A stretch of 9,943 nucleotides of DNA from positions 1 through 9,943 of the forward strand of contig JAADIA010000076.1 of assembly GCA_013151555.1 (NCBI GenBank), read 5' to 3'. Below, one piece after another: positions 2 through 8,100 of the stretch. A model generated the notes under the pieces. It saw only the letters and a program-made list of their open reading frames with translations, ran no database searches and was not told where the DNA came from. A program made the translations under genes and the position numbers. Source of the stretch: Nitrospirota bacterium. GTDB lineage: Bacteria > NPL-UPA2 > JAADIA01. Numbering within the stretch: the first letter of the stretch is position 1; each line of letters starts with the position of its first letter.

Positions 2-385
2 CGACCAAGAAGAATTGCTAATTATCTGAAAGACCCACGTGATGAAGAGGCAAGCTTGTATATGGTGATTCATAAGAATAAGAAGCGGATACTTTATTTA
101 GGTATGACGCATCGTCAATATACGAACGATCGGATAAGAGAGCACGGATATAAGAATGTGCTCGTTTCGATAGGAATTATGGAAGTGGTTGGGAGCGTAG
201 TGACAGAACAACGGGTGAAAGATACAGAATCATTACTCATTTATACATACCAACCTCAGGATAATACAATGAAGAAAAAATGGATTAACCCTAAAGAGGA
301 AACATTGGTTGAGAACAAAGGCTTCTGTAGCTTTTTGCCGCGCTATTTGTTTTATGGGACTTGTGTTAGCGAAAAGAGGAGATAA
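2..385 (+). CDS. GIY-YIG-like domain protein, 5'-truncated by window edge
   Basis: The frame is open from base 2 to the TAA at 383-385, so the gene begins left of the window; the in-frame TTG at 56 is probably not the real start. The visible 127 residues contain a pattern like a GIY-YIG nuclease fold: an LYMVI strand, then ILYLGMT (resembling the 'YIG' strand), an Arg and His about ten residues on in RIREH, and later ESLLIYTY followed by PQDN, where the Glu matches the position of the metal-binding Glu. This is motif reading by eye, and the first GIY strand is weak. The sequence is A+T-rich (20 G/C in bases 61-120), unlike the G+C-rich gene after it, which starts 3 bases past this stop. No specific substrate or partner can be named; it could be a restriction-type or homing-type nuclease, or an inactive relative. 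Confidence 0.5.
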   Translation, partial: RPRRIANYLKDPRDEEASLYMVIHKNKKRILYLGMTHRQYTNDRIREHGYKNVLVSIGIMEVVGSVVTEQRVKDTESLLIYTYQPQDNTMKKKWINPKEETLVENKGFCSFLPRYLFYGTCVSEKRR

Positions 386-2956: not shown

Positions 2957-3295
2957 ATGAAGAAATTTAATTGTAAGGGTGTGTTCTATACCTATATTGT
3001 GGAATGTCAGGATGGGACTTATTATACGGGGTATACTAATGATTTGGAGAAGCGGCTGGGAGAGCATAATGGGAGTAAGCGGGGGGCAAGGTATACCCGG
3101 GGTAAGCGGCCGGTTAGGTTGGTTTGGAAAAAGGAGTATAAATACTTTAAAAAAGCAATTTTGGAAGAGATTAGGATAAAGAAATTGACAAGGAAGCAGA
3201 AGGAAGAGCTGGTTAAAAGTGGCACCCCGCTTCGCGAGATATGCAAAAATTCTCTCGATAATTTTCGGCATACTCAGCGGGATAATTCGCACTGA
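2957..3295 (+). CDS. GIY-YIG nuclease superfamily protein, UPF0213/YhbQ type
   Basis: A 112-residue single-domain GIY-YIG protein. The two signature strands are Y11-T-Y13-I-V15 and Y22-Y-T-G25, followed by the catalytic-type R33 and H37 in EKRLGEHN, then RYTRGKRPVRLVW. The family Glu is E71 in EEIRIKKL. Members are usually about 95-100 residues; here the last dozen residues (NFRHTQRDNSH) extend the tail, and the final codons overlap a REP-like repeat. YhbQ-type proteins are small standalone nuclease-fold proteins with DNA cleavage reported for some members; their cell role is unclear. The Shine-Dalgarno is weak, but an in-frame stop at 2951-2953 makes ATG 2957 the first possible ATG. The gene begins 58 bases after the small ORF behind the AbiEi-like gene. 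Confidence 0.88.
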   Translation: MKKFNCKGVFYTYIVECQDGTYYTGYTNDLEKRLGEHNGSKRGARYTRGKRPVRLVWKKEYKYFKKAILEEIRIKKLTRKQKEELVKSGTPLREICKNSLDNFRHTQRDNSH

Positions 3296-3320
3296 TCATC
3301 CGCCTAAGGCGGACGATGTG
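3285..3320 (+). repeat. REP-like 36-base repeat, copy 1
   Basis: The repeat begins ATTCGCACT and contains the palindrome TCCGCCTAAGGCGGA followed by CGATGTG. It matches 9887-9922 at 33 of 36 positions. It covers the stop codon of the GIY-YIG gene and ends at the upstream, rejected ATG (3316) of miaB. The palindrome could form a short hairpin but has no T-run after it. Confidence 0.7.
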
Positions 3321-3336
3321 CTCATTAGAGGAAGTT

Positions 3337-4947
3337 ATGAAGGGGGAAATTTTTCAGATAGAAAAAAGTGGTAGTCCCTCGCACGGGGATCCCGGGTTAA
3401 ATGCTGATACTCAGCTTTTAACCCGGGGTGCTTCGGGATGGCACCCAAAAGTTTTTATTAAAACTTTTGGTTGCCAGATGAATCGCTCGGACTCGGAGTT
3501 GATGGCTGCGTTGTTGGCGAAGGATGGATATGAAGTGGCCAGGGATGTCCAGTCAGCGGATGTGGTTTTGCTGAATACTTGCAGTGTACGTAAGCATGCT
3601 GAGGAGAAGGTATGGAGTGAGTTGGGGCGGTTGGGAATTTTGAAGGAGGAGAAAGGTGCGCTTATTTTAGGTGTTTGTGGATGTATGGCCCAGCGGGAGG
3701 GAAAGGAAATTGTCAGGAGGGCTCCTTTTGTTGATGTTGTCTGTGGTCCTCATAATTTTGGAAGGATTGTGGAGTTAATTGACCGGGCAAAAAGGAATGG
3801 AAAGGCCGTAGTTGATGTTGGTGAAAGTGAGGAGGTTTTTCCTTCCGGCGAGGTTACTGTTCCTGGTGGGAACGGCAGAATCAATGCCTGGGTATCCATC
3901 ATGAGAGGATGTAATAATTTCTGTGCCTATTGTGTGGTTCCTTACCTGCGGGGTCGGGAGAAGAGCCGTCCGGCAGAGGATATTGTTAAGGAAATAGAAG
4001 GATTAGTGAAAACCGGGATTAAGGAAGTTACTTTGCTGGGACAGAATGTTAATTCTTACAGGTACAGACCTCAGATTACAGAAGACAGAGGACAGACTGC
4101 AAAACACAGAGAACAGAAGACAGAACACAGATCTCAGACTATAGACTATAGATTACAGGATATAAACTACAGAATACAAAATACAGAAGACAGAGAACGG
4201 AAGACGGAAGCATACAGAACACAGAACACAGAACACAGATCTCAGACTATAGACGAGGGAATGCCGGCGGTGGGTTTTGTTGATTTGTTGAGGATGGTGA
4301 ATACGGTGGAGGGATTGGAGCGGGCAAGATTTGTTACTTCTCATCCGCGGGATATGACGGAGGAGATATTGCGGGTGGTTTCTGATTCGGAAAAAATCTG
4401 CGAACATTTACATCTTCCTCTTCAGGCGGGGTCGGACCGGATTTTGAAGATGATGAATCGGGGTTATACCCAGGAGTACTACCGGAAGCTGGCGCAAAAA
4501 GCCAGAGAGATCATTCCTGGTGTAGCGATTAGTACGGATTTGATTGTGGGATTTCCCGGCGAGACCGATGCGGACTTTGAGGAGACTTTGAAGATGATCA
4601 GGGATGTTCAATTTTCGGGGTCGTTTATTTATAAGTATTCACCTCGTCCGGGAACGGCAGCAATGAATATGGAGGGGGAAATACCTGAGGAGGTTAAGAA
4701 AGCAAGGCTCCGGCGGGTGGAAGTATTGCAGAAGCAGATATGTCTTAATCGAAATCAGGAATTGATTGGGAAGAGGGTTGAGGTGCTTATAGAAGGACCA
4801 AGTAAGAAGGAAGCTCACAAACTTTCCGGACGGACCCGGGATAATAGGATTGTGATCGCGGAAGGGAAAAAGGAGCTGATAGGGAAGTTAGTTTCGGTTA
4901 AAATTATTGAGGTTAGTGCCTGGACCCTGTATGGGGAACTGTTGTAA
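3337..4947 (+). CDS. miaB: tRNA-2-methylthio-N6-dimethylallyladenosine synthase MiaB
   Basis: Radical-SAM methylthiotransferase that converts i6A37 to ms2i6A37 in tRNAs reading UNN codons. Counting from ATG 3337 (536 residues), the N-terminal MTTase domain carries the auxiliary-cluster cysteines C46 (KTFGCQMN), C82 (LLNTCSVRKHAEEK) and C116 (GCMAQREG). The radical-SAM motif is C192-x3-C196-x2-C199 (MRGCNNFCAYC), followed by VPYLRGREKSR. A TRAM domain closes the protein (about 470-536, ending WTLYGELL). Typical MiaB is about 440-475 residues. The excess comes from a 38-residue N-terminal extension built largely from a palindromic element and a 60-residue tandem-repeat insert (residues 247-306) after LLGQNVNSY. 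ATG 3337 has AGAGGA 4 bases upstream and is preferred over ATG 3316, which lies in a dispersed repeat. No in-frame ATG, GTG or TTG exists between the palindrome and the first conserved residues. All key cysteines are intact, so activity is likely. Confidence 0.95.
   Translation: MKGEIFQIEKSGSPSHGDPGLNADTQLLTRGASGWHPKVFIKTFGCQMNRSDSELMAALLAKDGYEVARDVQSADVVLLNTCSVRKHAEEKVWSELGRLGILKEEKGALILGVCGCMAQREGKEIVRRAPFVDVVCGPHNFGRIVELIDRAKRNGKAVVDVGESEEVFPSGEVTVPGGNGRINAWVSIMRGCNNFCAYCVVPYLRGREKSRPAEDIVKEIEGLVKTGIKEVTLLGQNVNSYRYRPQITEDRGQTAKHREQKTEHRSQTIDYRLQDINYRIQNTEDRERKTEAYRTQNTEHRSQTIDEGMPAVGFVDLLRMVNTVEGLERARFVTSHPRDMTEEILRVVSDSEKICEHLHLPLQAGSDRILKMMNRGYTQEYYRKLAQKAREIIPGVAISTDLIVGFPGETDADFEETLKMIRDVQFSGSFIYKYSPRPGTAAMNMEGEIPEEVKKARLRRVEVLQKQICLNRNQELIGKRVEVLIEGPSKKEAHKLSGRTRDNRIVIAEGKKELIGKLVSVKIIEVSAWTLYGELL
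3375..3446. repeat. Palindromic element translated in the miaB N-terminus
   Basis: The core is a hairpin with 17-base arms at 3391-3407 and 3411-3427 (CCCGGGTTAAATGCTGA against its near-exact reverse complement), one T-T mismatch and a 3-base loop TAC. Flanking it are smaller hairpins: TCCC/GGGA (3375-3378 and 3386-3389) and GGGTGC/GCACCC (3426-3431 and 3441-3446). The whole resembles a palindromic mini-element of the REP or MITE kind. It lies in frame between the miaB start and the first conserved MiaB residues, encoding roughly DPGLNADTQLLTRGASGW. Confidence 0.7.
4075..4254 (+). repeat. 7-base/21-base tandem repeat inside miaB
   Basis: The DNA is built from 7-base units near ACAGANN. Three units make 21 bases, read as a 7-residue repeat: ITEDRGQ, TAKHREQ, KTEHRSQ, TIDYRLQ, DINYRIQ, NTEDRER, then an eight-residue KTEAYRTQ, then NTEHRSQ and TID. 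A 26-base stretch at 4121-4146 recurs identically at 4229-4254, 108 bases (36 codons) later. A 7-base unit with no stop codon stays open in every frame, and the net insert keeps the frame. It lies where ordinary MiaB proteins have only a short loop between LLGQNVNSY and the next helix (FVDLLRMV). Confidence 0.85.
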
Positions 4948-4967
4948 ACCACGAGGATATGAAGAAC

Positions 4968-5034
4968 ACGAAGGGTAAGAAAGAGAACTTAAAGAGATGA
5001 AACCACGAGATTACACGAGATTAACACGAGAAAA
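4968..5034 (+). repeat. ACACGAGATT repeat tract, copy A
   Basis: This 67-base unit matches copy B (5133-5199) at 65 of 67 positions; the two start 165 bases apart. It starts ACGAAGGGTAAGAAAGAG and ends with the ACACGAGATT series. It carries the same ATG context as copy B (ATG 4997), but its frame closes after 15 codons. A related degenerate run (ACCACGAGG, ACACGAAGG) begins directly after the miaB stop, at about 4948. Another short periodic run based on ACGCAG lies at 5062-5090 between the copies. Confidence 0.85.
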
Positions 5035-5132
5035 CAATAAATAACAAAACAATTACATTTTAACCGCCGAGGACGCAGAGAACGCAGGGAAATGCAGATT
5101 TAAAGGATTTAAAAATATTTACTACAGAGAAT

Positions 5133-5199
5133 ACGAAGGGTAAGAAAGAGAACTGAAAAAGATGAAACCACGAGATTACACGAGATTAACACGAGAAAA
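5133..5199 (+). repeat. ACACGAGATT repeat tract, copy B
   Basis: Second copy of the 67-base unit, differing from copy A at two positions. It runs directly into the GxxExxY pseudogene and supplies that ORF's ATG (5162) and first codons, read as [13 protein letters not shown]. Confidence 0.85.
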
Positions 5200-5441
5200 A
5201 GATAATAAATGGCTTTATAAAGAGCTGACAGAGAAGATTATTGGGGCAGCAATGGAAGTTCATAGGGTTTTAGGGGCAGGTTTTTTAGAATATGTGTATG
5301 AAGAAGCATTATGTTACGAGTGGGTTGACAAACAATGATGAAGCTCAACTTTTGAACTATCTAAAAGGCACCAAACTGAGAATTGGGCTATTGTTAGATT
5401 TTGGCACTGAGAGCTTAGAAATTAGAAGAAAAATCTTGTGA
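5162..5441 (+). pseudogene. GxxExxY-family protein, internal-deletion pseudogene
   Basis: The 5' piece (5162-5338) reads through [20 protein letters not shown] and [14 protein letters not shown], the GxxExxY N-terminal signature (G-x2-E-x2-Y in [11 protein letters not shown] and a typical IIGAAMEVH helix), then hits stops. In the +1 frame from about 5325 the gene resumes as [16 protein letters not shown], then KLRIGLLLDFG, and ends RRKIL with a TGA at 5439-5441, which is the normal family C-terminus. The join near 5320-5325 lacks roughly 45-50 middle residues and changes frame, so one out-of-frame deletion explains the loss. The family's function is poorly known, with a nuclease-like fold suggested. 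The remnant sits between miaB and mutS and is bounded by inverted repeats. Confidence 0.85.
5166..5195 (+). repeat. Left inverted repeat around the GxxExxY remnant
   Basis: This arm (AACCACGAGATTACACGAGA, then TTAACACGAG) is an imperfect inverted match to 5435-5463: about 24 of 30 aligned positions agree when one arm is reverse-complemented, with a one-base gap. It lies inside copy B of the tract repeat. Confidence 0.65.
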
Positions 5442-5463
5442 AAATCTGTGAAATCTTGTGGTT
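5435..5463 (-). repeat. Right inverted repeat around the GxxExxY remnant
   Basis: The arm reads CTTGTGAAAATCTGTG followed by AAATCTTGTGGTT, a decayed inverted copy of 5166-5195. It overlaps the last codons of the GxxExxY remnant and ends 30 bases before mutS, so the pair defines a segment of about 298 bases. Confidence 0.65.
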
Positions 5464-5493
5464 AAGCTTTTTCCCGGGAGGATGAGGTAAGAC

Positions 5494-8100
5494 GTGCCTG
5501 AACTTACTCCTATGATCCGGCAGTATTTGGGGATAAAGAAGAAGCATGAGGATGCTATTCTTCTTTATCGTCTGGGGGATTTCTATGAGATGTTTTTTGA
5601 GGATGCCAAGGTGGCTTCTAAGATTCTCCAGATTACCCTTACTTCCCGGGGCGGGGGAAAGGGCCGGAAAATTCCTATGTGCGGGGTGCCTTACCATGCG
5701 GTGGATAATTATATCTCCCGTTTGGTAAAGGCGGGGCACCGGGTGGCTATCTGTGAACAGGTAGAGGATGCGGCTCTGGCCAAGGGCATTGTGAAGAGGG
5801 AGACGGTGCGCCTGATTACTCCGGGAACAGCTCTCAGCGATAATTTGTTGGAGGAGCGGAAGAATAATTTTCTCGTGGCTCTTAACAAAGAGAAGGAGAT
5901 AGTAGGACTTTCTTTGATTGACCTCTCCACGGGAGAGTTTAAGGTTACCCAGTTAAAGGACGGGGAGGAGTTGTCCAATGAGCTTACCCGTCTTAATCCC
6001 AGCGAATGTCTTCTTCCGGAAGGGTTAAAGAAAGAAGAGGAGTTTCTGAAGAGGATAAATAAAGAAGGTGAAATGCTTATTACCGAGCGGGAGGATTTCA
6101 CTTTTGATGCGGAGACGGCTTACCGCACTCTTACCAGACATTTTCACACCCATTCCCTGGAAGGGTTCGGGTGTGAAAGCTTGCCGCTGGCTCTGGGGGC
6201 GGCGGGGGCTATCCTTGACTACCTTCAGGAAACGCAAAAGACGGCTCTTTCCCATATTGTGAAACTGACGGCTTATTCGACTTCGGAATTTATGGTTCTG
6301 GACCGGGTTACCCAACGCAATTTAGAGTTGATTCATACCCTGGCAGGGACAAAGGGGGGCAGTTTATTATCGGTGCTGGATGATACGGTTACTTCTATGG
6401 GAGGGAGGAAACTGCGGAACTGGATGCAGCAACCGCTTCTAAAGACGGAGAAGATAAGGGAACGGCAGGAAGCGGTGGAAGAATTTTTCCAGCAGCTTTC
6501 CCAGCGGCGGGAGTTGCGCCGGCTACTTAAGGACCTGCCTGACCTGGAACGTCTTTCCAGCCGGGCCAGTTGCGGATTGGCTCATGCTCAGGACCTGGTT
6601 GCCTTGAGCCGGGCTCTCCGGATTATCCCGCAAGTAAAGGAGGAAATATCTTCAGGCAAGTCCCGATTGGTCAAAGAGTTAAATGCTAATTTAGAGAATC
6701 TACATGAACTGGCCGATGGCATCTCTCGGGCTCTTGTCTCTGAGCCTCCTTTCTCTCTGCGGGAGGGGGGACTAATCCGGGACGGATATGCGGAAGAATT
6801 GGACGAGTTACGGAAGGTGCGCCGGGGTGGGAAGGAATGGATTGCTCAGCTTCAGACCCGGGAGAAGGAAAGGACTAAAATCAGCTCCCTAAAGGTCGGG
6901 TTCACCCGGGTATTCGGCTATTATATTGAAGTAACTAAACCTAATCTGAAGCTTGTCCCTCCTGATTATATTCGCAAACAGACACTGGTTAATGCCGAGA
7001 GGTTTATCACTCCCGCGCTTAAGGAATACGAAGCGCAGGTGCTTGGGGCGGAGGAAAGAATCAAGGAGCTGGAGTATAAAATCTTTCTGGAGCTCCGGGA
7101 AAAGGTAGCCGGGGAAGCGGGAAGGGTACTGAAAGCGGCGGATATTCTTGCTACCCTGGATGTCCTCACCTGCCTGGCGGAAGTGGCGATGAGAAATAAT
7201 TATGTCCGGCCGGAAGTGCAGGAGAGCAAGGTTGTCTCTATTAAAGACGGGCGGCATCCGGTGTTGGAGAGAGTGCTGGAGGAGCCTTTTGTTCCTAATG
7301 ATACGCTTCTGGATAGCCGCGAGAATCAACTTATCATTATCACCGGGCCGAATATGGCCGGGAAGTCTACTTATATCCGCCAGGTTGCGCTTATTGTTTT
7401 AATGGCGCAGATGGGAAGTTTTGTCCCGGCCCGGGAAGCGGTTCTGGGAACGGTGGATAGAATCTTCACCCGGGTGGGGGCTGCGGATGAGCTTTCCCGG
7501 GGGATGAGCACTTTTATGATGGAGATGAATGAGACGGCCAACATCCTTAATAATGCTACTTCCCGGAGTCTTATTATCCTGGATGAGATCGGGCGGGGGA
7601 CAAGCACTTTTGATGGGATAAGTATTGCCTGGGCGGTAGCTGAGTATATTCATAATCATCCGGGCCTGGGTGCTAAAACTCTTTTTGCTACCCATTATCA
7701 TGAACTGACGGAGTTGGCCTTGACTTTGCCCCGGGTGAAGAATTATAATATTGCTGTCCGGGAATGGAATGAGGAGGTTATTTTCCTCAGGAAGGTAGTG
7801 GAGGGGGGAAGCGACAGGAGTTATGGTATTCATGTGGCCCGCTTGGCGGGGCTTCCCCGGGAGGTTATCGAACGGGCCAAGGATATTCTTGCCAACCTGG
7901 AGAAGGAAGCTTTCACGGAGAACGGGCAGCCGAGGTTGGCGGTTTCTCCCGGGAAGCCGGAGGAGAAGCCGGCGCAACTGAGTCTTTTTGAAACTCCGGC
8001 CCATCCCTTGATAGAGGAAATTAAGGAATTGGATATTGATGACCTTTCTCCCCGGGAGGCGTTGGAGAAGTTGTATGAGTTGAAGAAGAAGGTGAAGTAG
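5494..8100 (+). CDS. mutS: DNA mismatch repair protein MutS
   Basis: An 868-residue, full-length MutS that recognises base mismatches and small loops and signals repair as an ATP-driven dimer clamp. The N-terminal domain has the mismatch-stacking Phe-x-Glu motif F30-Y31-E32 in LGDFYEMFFEDA. Connector, lever and clamp regions follow, including SVLDDTVTSMGGRKLRNW. The ATPase has Walker A GPNMAGKST (residues 618-626), Walker B LIILDEIGRGTSTFDG with D697-E698, and the ATHYHELT segment. The C-terminus has QLSLFE and a terminal helical dimerisation motif ending ALEKLYELKKKVK. The start is GTG 5494, with GAGGT 5 bases upstream. The 546-base gap from miaB is filled by repeats and the GxxExxY remnant, so the two genes were probably closer before. 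No mutL is in the window. Confidence 0.97.
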   Translation: MPELTPMIRQYLGIKKKHEDAILLYRLGDFYEMFFEDAKVASKILQITLTSRGGGKGRKIPMCGVPYHAVDNYISRLVKAGHRVAICEQVEDAALAKGIVKRETVRLITPGTALSDNLLEERKNNFLVALNKEKEIVGLSLIDLSTGEFKVTQLKDGEELSNELTRLNPSECLLPEGLKKEEEFLKRINKEGEMLITEREDFTFDAETAYRTLTRHFHTHSLEGFGCESLPLALGAAGAILDYLQETQKTALSHIVKLTAYSTSEFMVLDRVTQRNLELIHTLAGTKGGSLLSVLDDTVTSMGGRKLRNWMQQPLLKTEKIRERQEAVEEFFQQLSQRRELRRLLKDLPDLERLSSRASCGLAHAQDLVALSRALRIIPQVKEEISSGKSRLVKELNANLENLHELADGISRALVSEPPFSLREGGLIRDGYAEELDELRKVRRGGKEWIAQLQTREKERTKISSLKVGFTRVFGYYIEVTKPNLKLVPPDYIRKQTLVNAERFITPALKEYEAQVLGAEERIKELEYKIFLELREKVAGEAGRVLKAADILATLDVLTCLAEVAMRNNYVRPEVQESKVVSIKDGRHPVLERVLEEPFVPNDTLLDSRENQLIIITGPNMAGKSTYIRQVALIVLMAQMGSFVPAREAVLGTVDRIFTRVGAADELSRGMSTFMMEMNETANILNNATSRSLIILDEIGRGTSTFDGISIAWAVAEYIHNHPGLGAKTLFATHYHELTELALTLPRVKNYNIAVREWNEEVIFLRKVVEGGSDRSYGIHVARLAGLPREVIERAKDILANLEKEAFTENGQPRLAVSPGKPEEKPAQLSLFETPAHPLIEEIKELDIDDLSPREALEKLYELKKKVK

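Follow-up and report, generated by a model that had tools for sequence, protein, structure and literature searches.

The window, that is the whole stretch of 9,943 nucleotides analysed here (positions 1-9,943 of contig JAADIA010000076.1, assembly GCA_013151555.1, from an uncultured Nitrospirota bacterium), carries a miaB gene on the forward strand at 3316-4947, encoding a conserved enzyme of tRNA modification with 543 amino acids including the insert described below. Its product contains the Pfam domains UPF0004, radical SAM and TRAM, and scored 537 bits with the curated model TIGR01574, for which the cut-off is 355. The CxxxCxxC motif of the radical SAM domain and the three cysteines of the N domain were present, and C53, C89, C123, C199, C203 and C206 were invariant in 39 sequences. 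A GIY-YIG domain gene (2957-3295, forward strand; PF01541, 62.9 bits) lies immediately upstream of miaB, and upstream of it is an AbiEi-like protein at 2136-2810 (PF09952, 43 bits). In genome G258, which belongs to an unrelated phylum, a GIY-YIG homologue (L180 ORF 1590-1862) is likewise located upstream of an array-bearing MiaB gene. Downstream of miaB (4948-5200) there are more degenerate short-period repeats, including CACGAGATTA (10 bp) at 5004-5031 and 5169-5196, within a direct duplication of about 160 bp, and CGCAGAGAA (9 bp) at 5065-5091. Right after them, at 5219-5429, lie degraded remnants of GxxExxY (PDDEXK_3), a gene which was found in the host genome (G000) as fragments only. Scanning the window for Rfam families and tRNAs gave no matches.

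The loop of MiaB between NVNSY and TSHP (4045-4343, forward strand) is 92 aa long, while it was 22-49 aa in 81 homologues (median 31 aa). In G001, another genome of the same order, the corresponding loop is 22 aa. The homologue search of genome contigs gave mostly proteobacterial matches. The solved MiaB structure 7mjv aligned with residues 43-252 and 319-541 of the query, and it has only 5 residues between the two aligned blocks. The insert is missing from relatives and from the solved MiaB. An otherwise intact MiaB had been claimed from the sequence-only reading, and this holds, because both flanks align to 7mjv and the curated model, domains and cysteines are kept. The MiaB of G001 (L010 610-2172) carries a different in-frame repeat, with a five-residue unit of the GETDARKGDV type, at the junction of its N and radical SAM domains. 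It seems that MiaB has been hit by in-frame repeats more than once.

Inside the loop there is a heptamer array on the forward strand, which spans about 4064-4254 by inspection; the start at 4075 given by the sequence-only reading is about 11 bases too late. TRF reported a period-7 array at 4072-4239 with 23.6 copies and 68% matches. The self-identity at a shift of 7 was 0.683 over 180 bp of the array, while elsewhere in the window the best stretch reached 0.339 (mean 0.249, sd 0.032), and the miaB array is far above chance. Together with the translation, these results confirm the in-frame tandem repeat of seven residues. The array mixes ACAGANN and YAGACYA units, and the unit consensus is a degenerate WYAGANN with free positions 6 and 7, of which positions 1-5 are partly fixed by the array-finding procedure. 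The unit had been called microsatellite-like; the period of 7 is real, but a plain microsatellite is disfavoured, since adjacent units mostly differ at positions 6-7 (both positions are shared by 0.169 of adjacent pairs, compared with 0.121 in shuffled units); the array is instead a single arm of the hairpin repeat family described below. It had also been supposed that units of this kind lack stops and keep the array open in all frames. Reading the sequence, we found TAG at 4142, 4149 and 4250 and TAA at 4163 in the two other frames, and only the MiaB frame is open.

The array contains an internal duplication. Two copies of about 90 bp could be aligned on the forward strand, one at 4064-4152 and the other at 4169-4257, with a single frame-keeping gap of 3 nt within the alignment. 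An identical block of 26 bases, 36 codons apart, had been taken as a sign of duplication; the spacing (108 nt) is right, the block is 27 nt long (4120-4146 is identical to 4228-4254, the latter within the second copy), and the duplication itself is borne out.

The array encodes eight x-R-x-Q-x-x-x repeats, which include the peptide SQTIDEGMPAVGFVDLLR. The Arg position is kept in 8/8 and the Gln position in 7/8 repeats, just as the near-invariant Arg and Gln of the first reading. Residues 250-314 of MiaB are 78% polar or charged with a net charge of 0. A structure model had been suggested as a check, and AlphaFold2 with 39 sequences predicted a confident MiaB core, with block-mean pLDDT of 40-64 at around residues 250-320, where the hydrophilic insert is partly modelled as weak helix. 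From the confident core and the low pLDDT of the insert, it most likely protrudes from the enzyme as a flexible stretch. Apparently the insert adds about 60 floppy, charged amino acids to MiaB without breaking the enzyme. Judged from the intact domains, the cysteines and the predicted core, MiaB is probably active despite carrying the insert, which may be near neutral for it.

When the host genome was searched for the 7-base unit, the three-unit ACAGANN pattern gave 58 matches against 2 in a reversed control, and a second subfamily, YAGACYA, gave 36 matches against 1. The repeat is dispersed through the genome as tandem 7-bp units and is mostly intergenic. Many copies consist of two convergent arms: the purine-rich (WYAGANN)n comes first, and an A/T-rich loop separates it from the pyrimidine-rich (NNTCTRW)n. 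The order with the purine arm first outnumbered the reverse order 24:1 in the host genome and 10:0 in G121/G258, and five of the seven spacer elements tested folded better than their shuffles (z from -3.2 to -5.9). The inverted arm is absent from the MiaB array. The elements often start at a stop codon or stop just before the next start codon. Among 39 clusters in 417 kb, two were internal to ORFs (MiaB and UvrA), 14 lay over ORF ends and 23 were intergenic. The census was limited to stretches around arrays, and the share of coding DNA in it, about 88%, serves as a yardstick only because these stretches were picked for holding arrays. Gene interiors are avoided by the repeat family.

A shorter array in ArgD is a third gene-internal case, beyond the two found by the screen. 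Inside soluble proteins that are conserved, it is always the purine arm alone that occurs, read in frame on the sense strand; single sense arms were also seen at some protein ends. Relative to PDB 9gxk the UvrA insert measures about 26 aa, and that of ArgD 6 aa relative to 2ord. The frame of uvrA shifts at about L144:3005 (G000:C72), away from the array, by a frameshift or a sequence error. The MiaB insert is not an isolated case, since its peptide recurs in UvrA and ArgD, and since this loop of MiaB also holds a short array in a genome of an unrelated phylum.

The period of 7 means that each stop-free frame of the purine arm yields one and the same hydrophilic heptapeptide (TEDRGQK-like), which makes this arm easy for a protein to tolerate. 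The regular Arg and Gln follow from the DNA repeat. The opposite strand reads a hydrophobic heptapeptide (LLSVFCL-like), and this was found at protein ends. In L146 (ORF 4313-5626) both hairpin arms are read at the N-terminus, giving the charged EDRSQKTEVRK and then the hydrophobic LLSLIFLLLSVFCLLPSAFA, and this N-terminus looks like a putative secretion leader made from the repeat.

Comparing one genome per species, the four-unit pattern was present in 19 of 386 genomes and the hairpin pattern in 13. Many hairpin copies occurred in only a handful of genomes, with 49 matches in G258, 41 in the host genome, 36 in G360, 32 in G121 and 12 in G363; matches are counted on both strands, and elements are fewer than matches. 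G003, from the order of the window, had two hairpin matches. Within the phylum of G258, arrays were present in three genomes of one genus and not in the other four. The repeat family is patchy by genus across unrelated phyla. The short ACAGANN array of G258 in the same MiaB loop reads NVNSYASQKTENRRQRTEKNKNDFAHLL; this case rests on sequence and not on length, as the loop (37 aa before TTSHP) is in the normal range. Two relatives of G258 (G387 and G386) carry other, AT-rich repeats in that loop. In IleRS an array is long in G121, another relative of G258, short in G258 itself and absent from G386, and the length differences between IleRS arrays of related species are whole codons. Between carA and carB, G386 has a short spacer, whereas in G121 the spacer contains an ACAGANN hairpin and in G258 a different heptamer hairpin. 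From these two comparisons of related species, sites were gained, grown and replaced.

The best-known case of repeats inserted in frame into conserved proteins is the intracellular lineage Rickettsia. The likeness to Rickettsia palindromic elements drawn by the sequence-only reading is good as a working resemblance, for both are palindromic repeats in spacers, a few of which are fused in frame in conserved proteins and apparently tolerated. Its remark on a different architecture is also right. Rickettsia palindromic elements are 105-146 bp long and known from a single genus (PMC2229807), whereas the WYAGANN repeat forms 7-bp arrays of free length and without fixed ends, occurs in several unrelated lineages and places a single arm in soluble proteins; it lacks the terminal inverted repeats and the conserved sequence that mark an element of that size. 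The WYAGANN repeat works like these elements yet is not a member of their family.

Xanthomonas, Nostoc and Calothrix have heptameric repeats in dispersed tandem arrays of few to over 20 units (PMC4692102), and the WYAGANN repeat resembles them in its dispersed, mostly intergenic 7-bp arrays adjoining gene ends. For Xanthomonas and Nostoc, the units that were studied are rich in G and form quadruplexes (PMC4692102), unlike WYAGANN, which has no G runs, varies at two positions and is laid out as a hairpin. REPs are 20-40 bp long with a GTAG or CGTC tag (PMC3733652), and no such tag was noticed in the WYAGANN elements inspected. The WYAGANN hairpins share with REP/BIME the intergenic palindromes in high copy, but there is no consistent Y1 transposase (RAYT) in the bearing genomes, with no match in G258. 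PARCEL are amphipathic domains of 25 residues, located in ORFs to which no function is assigned (PMC2996958); they too are encoded by dyad-symmetric DNA, form peptide repeats and are patchy in distant microbes, whereas WYAGANN gives short arrays within housekeeping enzymes. The letter strings of the WYAGANN repeat were not found in the open papers searched, and no useful paper came up on cyanobacterial STRR or on repeats of this kind in uncultivated phyla.

The arrays might have arisen by local growth only, from a CAGA-like seed through slippage and duplication in place, with mutational bias producing the same motif across phyla. The internal duplication in MiaB fits this explanation, as does the share of positions 6-7 between neighbours, somewhat above the shuffled units, and many bacteria have an excess of heptameric repeats, for which slippage has been proposed (PMC4692102). 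But inverted arms in a single fixed order, many dispersed copies of the same core, patchiness at genus level and adjacent units which are mostly different all speak against it, and we regard local growth alone as possible but somewhat doubtful. Patchy occurrence in unrelated phyla and orthologous sites found both empty and filled are in favour of another explanation, in which a palindromic repeat resembling REPs or miniature transposons is mobilised by a Y1 (RAYT-like) transposase and passed between phyla. Y1_Tnp was present in 8 of 9 genomes counted as bearers and in 5 of 12 others (Fisher p 0.067), but not in G258, which has the most hairpin matches, although absence is not proof in a genome 92% complete. 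In addition, the length of copies varies freely, with no fixed ends and no target duplication identified, and we hold this explanation to be rather unlikely. RAYT mobilisation is disfavoured by the lack of a consistent Y1 partner across bearer genomes, and GxxExxY (PDDEXK_3) was rejected as partner for having no match in G121 and G258. Spread by phages was also rejected; 54 stretches of viral contigs held five-unit arrays, which were mostly homogeneous, with the inverted arm in 4 of 57 arrays.

Three further explanations concern the MiaB array more directly. Frameshift switching is known for shorter repeats, and a 7-bp unit, not being a multiple of 3, could switch miaB on and off through changes in unit number. 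Such a contingency locus is very improbable here: in the one miaB allele the units are not near-identical as in phase-variable loci, and their divergence is unfavourable to slippage, while the two MiaB copies differ by a gap that keeps the frame and the IleRS arrays by whole codons. Selection of the insert for MiaB function, such as binding of a partner or RNA, would agree with the regular Arg and Gln and with the use of the same loop by G258. We give it very little credit as well, because the regularity is a consequence of the DNA repeat, UvrA, ArgD, IleRS and protein tails contain this peptide too, relatives of G258 carry unrelated repeats in the loop, and the model confidence is low. Assemblies tend to fail at repeats and this draft genome has 99 contigs, but the frame is kept on both sides, the units are divergent enough for assembly, and inserts of the same class were seen elsewhere, both in further genes and in a genome that is unrelated, which leaves an assembly artefact extremely unlikely.

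We consider it likely that the miaB insert is a member of a family of heptamer repeats which form hairpins and are scattered over the whole genome; this family is either spreading or recurrently formed and is tolerated in frame at permissive surface loops. A short array would have been placed, or have arisen, in the length-variable loop after NVNSY in the radical SAM domain of MiaB, and would then have grown by duplication. Selection may have kept only frame-keeping, hydrophilic versions, and with such selection the enzyme would probably be active and the insert near neutral. For the family as a whole, selection would bar hairpin repeats from gene interiors, while the purine arm could be tolerated in frame in permissive loops. 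The first reading spoke of an invasion, and the turnover at orthologous sites at most suggests mobility.

The array at the same spot in an unrelated bacterium means that spreading repeats can reshape conserved proteins, here with a 7-bp-based repeat, different from that of Rickettsia, inserted in frame in unrelated, mostly fragmentary genomes. It offers a testable account of how spacer hairpins turn into protein segments, and the orthologous sites of MiaB, IleRS and carA-carB allow the gain and growth of arrays to be tracked. As a speculation which we ourselves think unlikely, WYAGANN hairpins might be one undescribed class of short repeats that crosses phyla, occupies the spacers of operons and time and again provides housekeeping genes with new translated segments (secretion leaders, surface loops and C-terminal tails), with the MiaB loop hit independently in two phyla. 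In G353 (L129, about 1495-1620) a heptamer hairpin appears to form a leader before a type IV pilin-like GFTLIELLVV segment.
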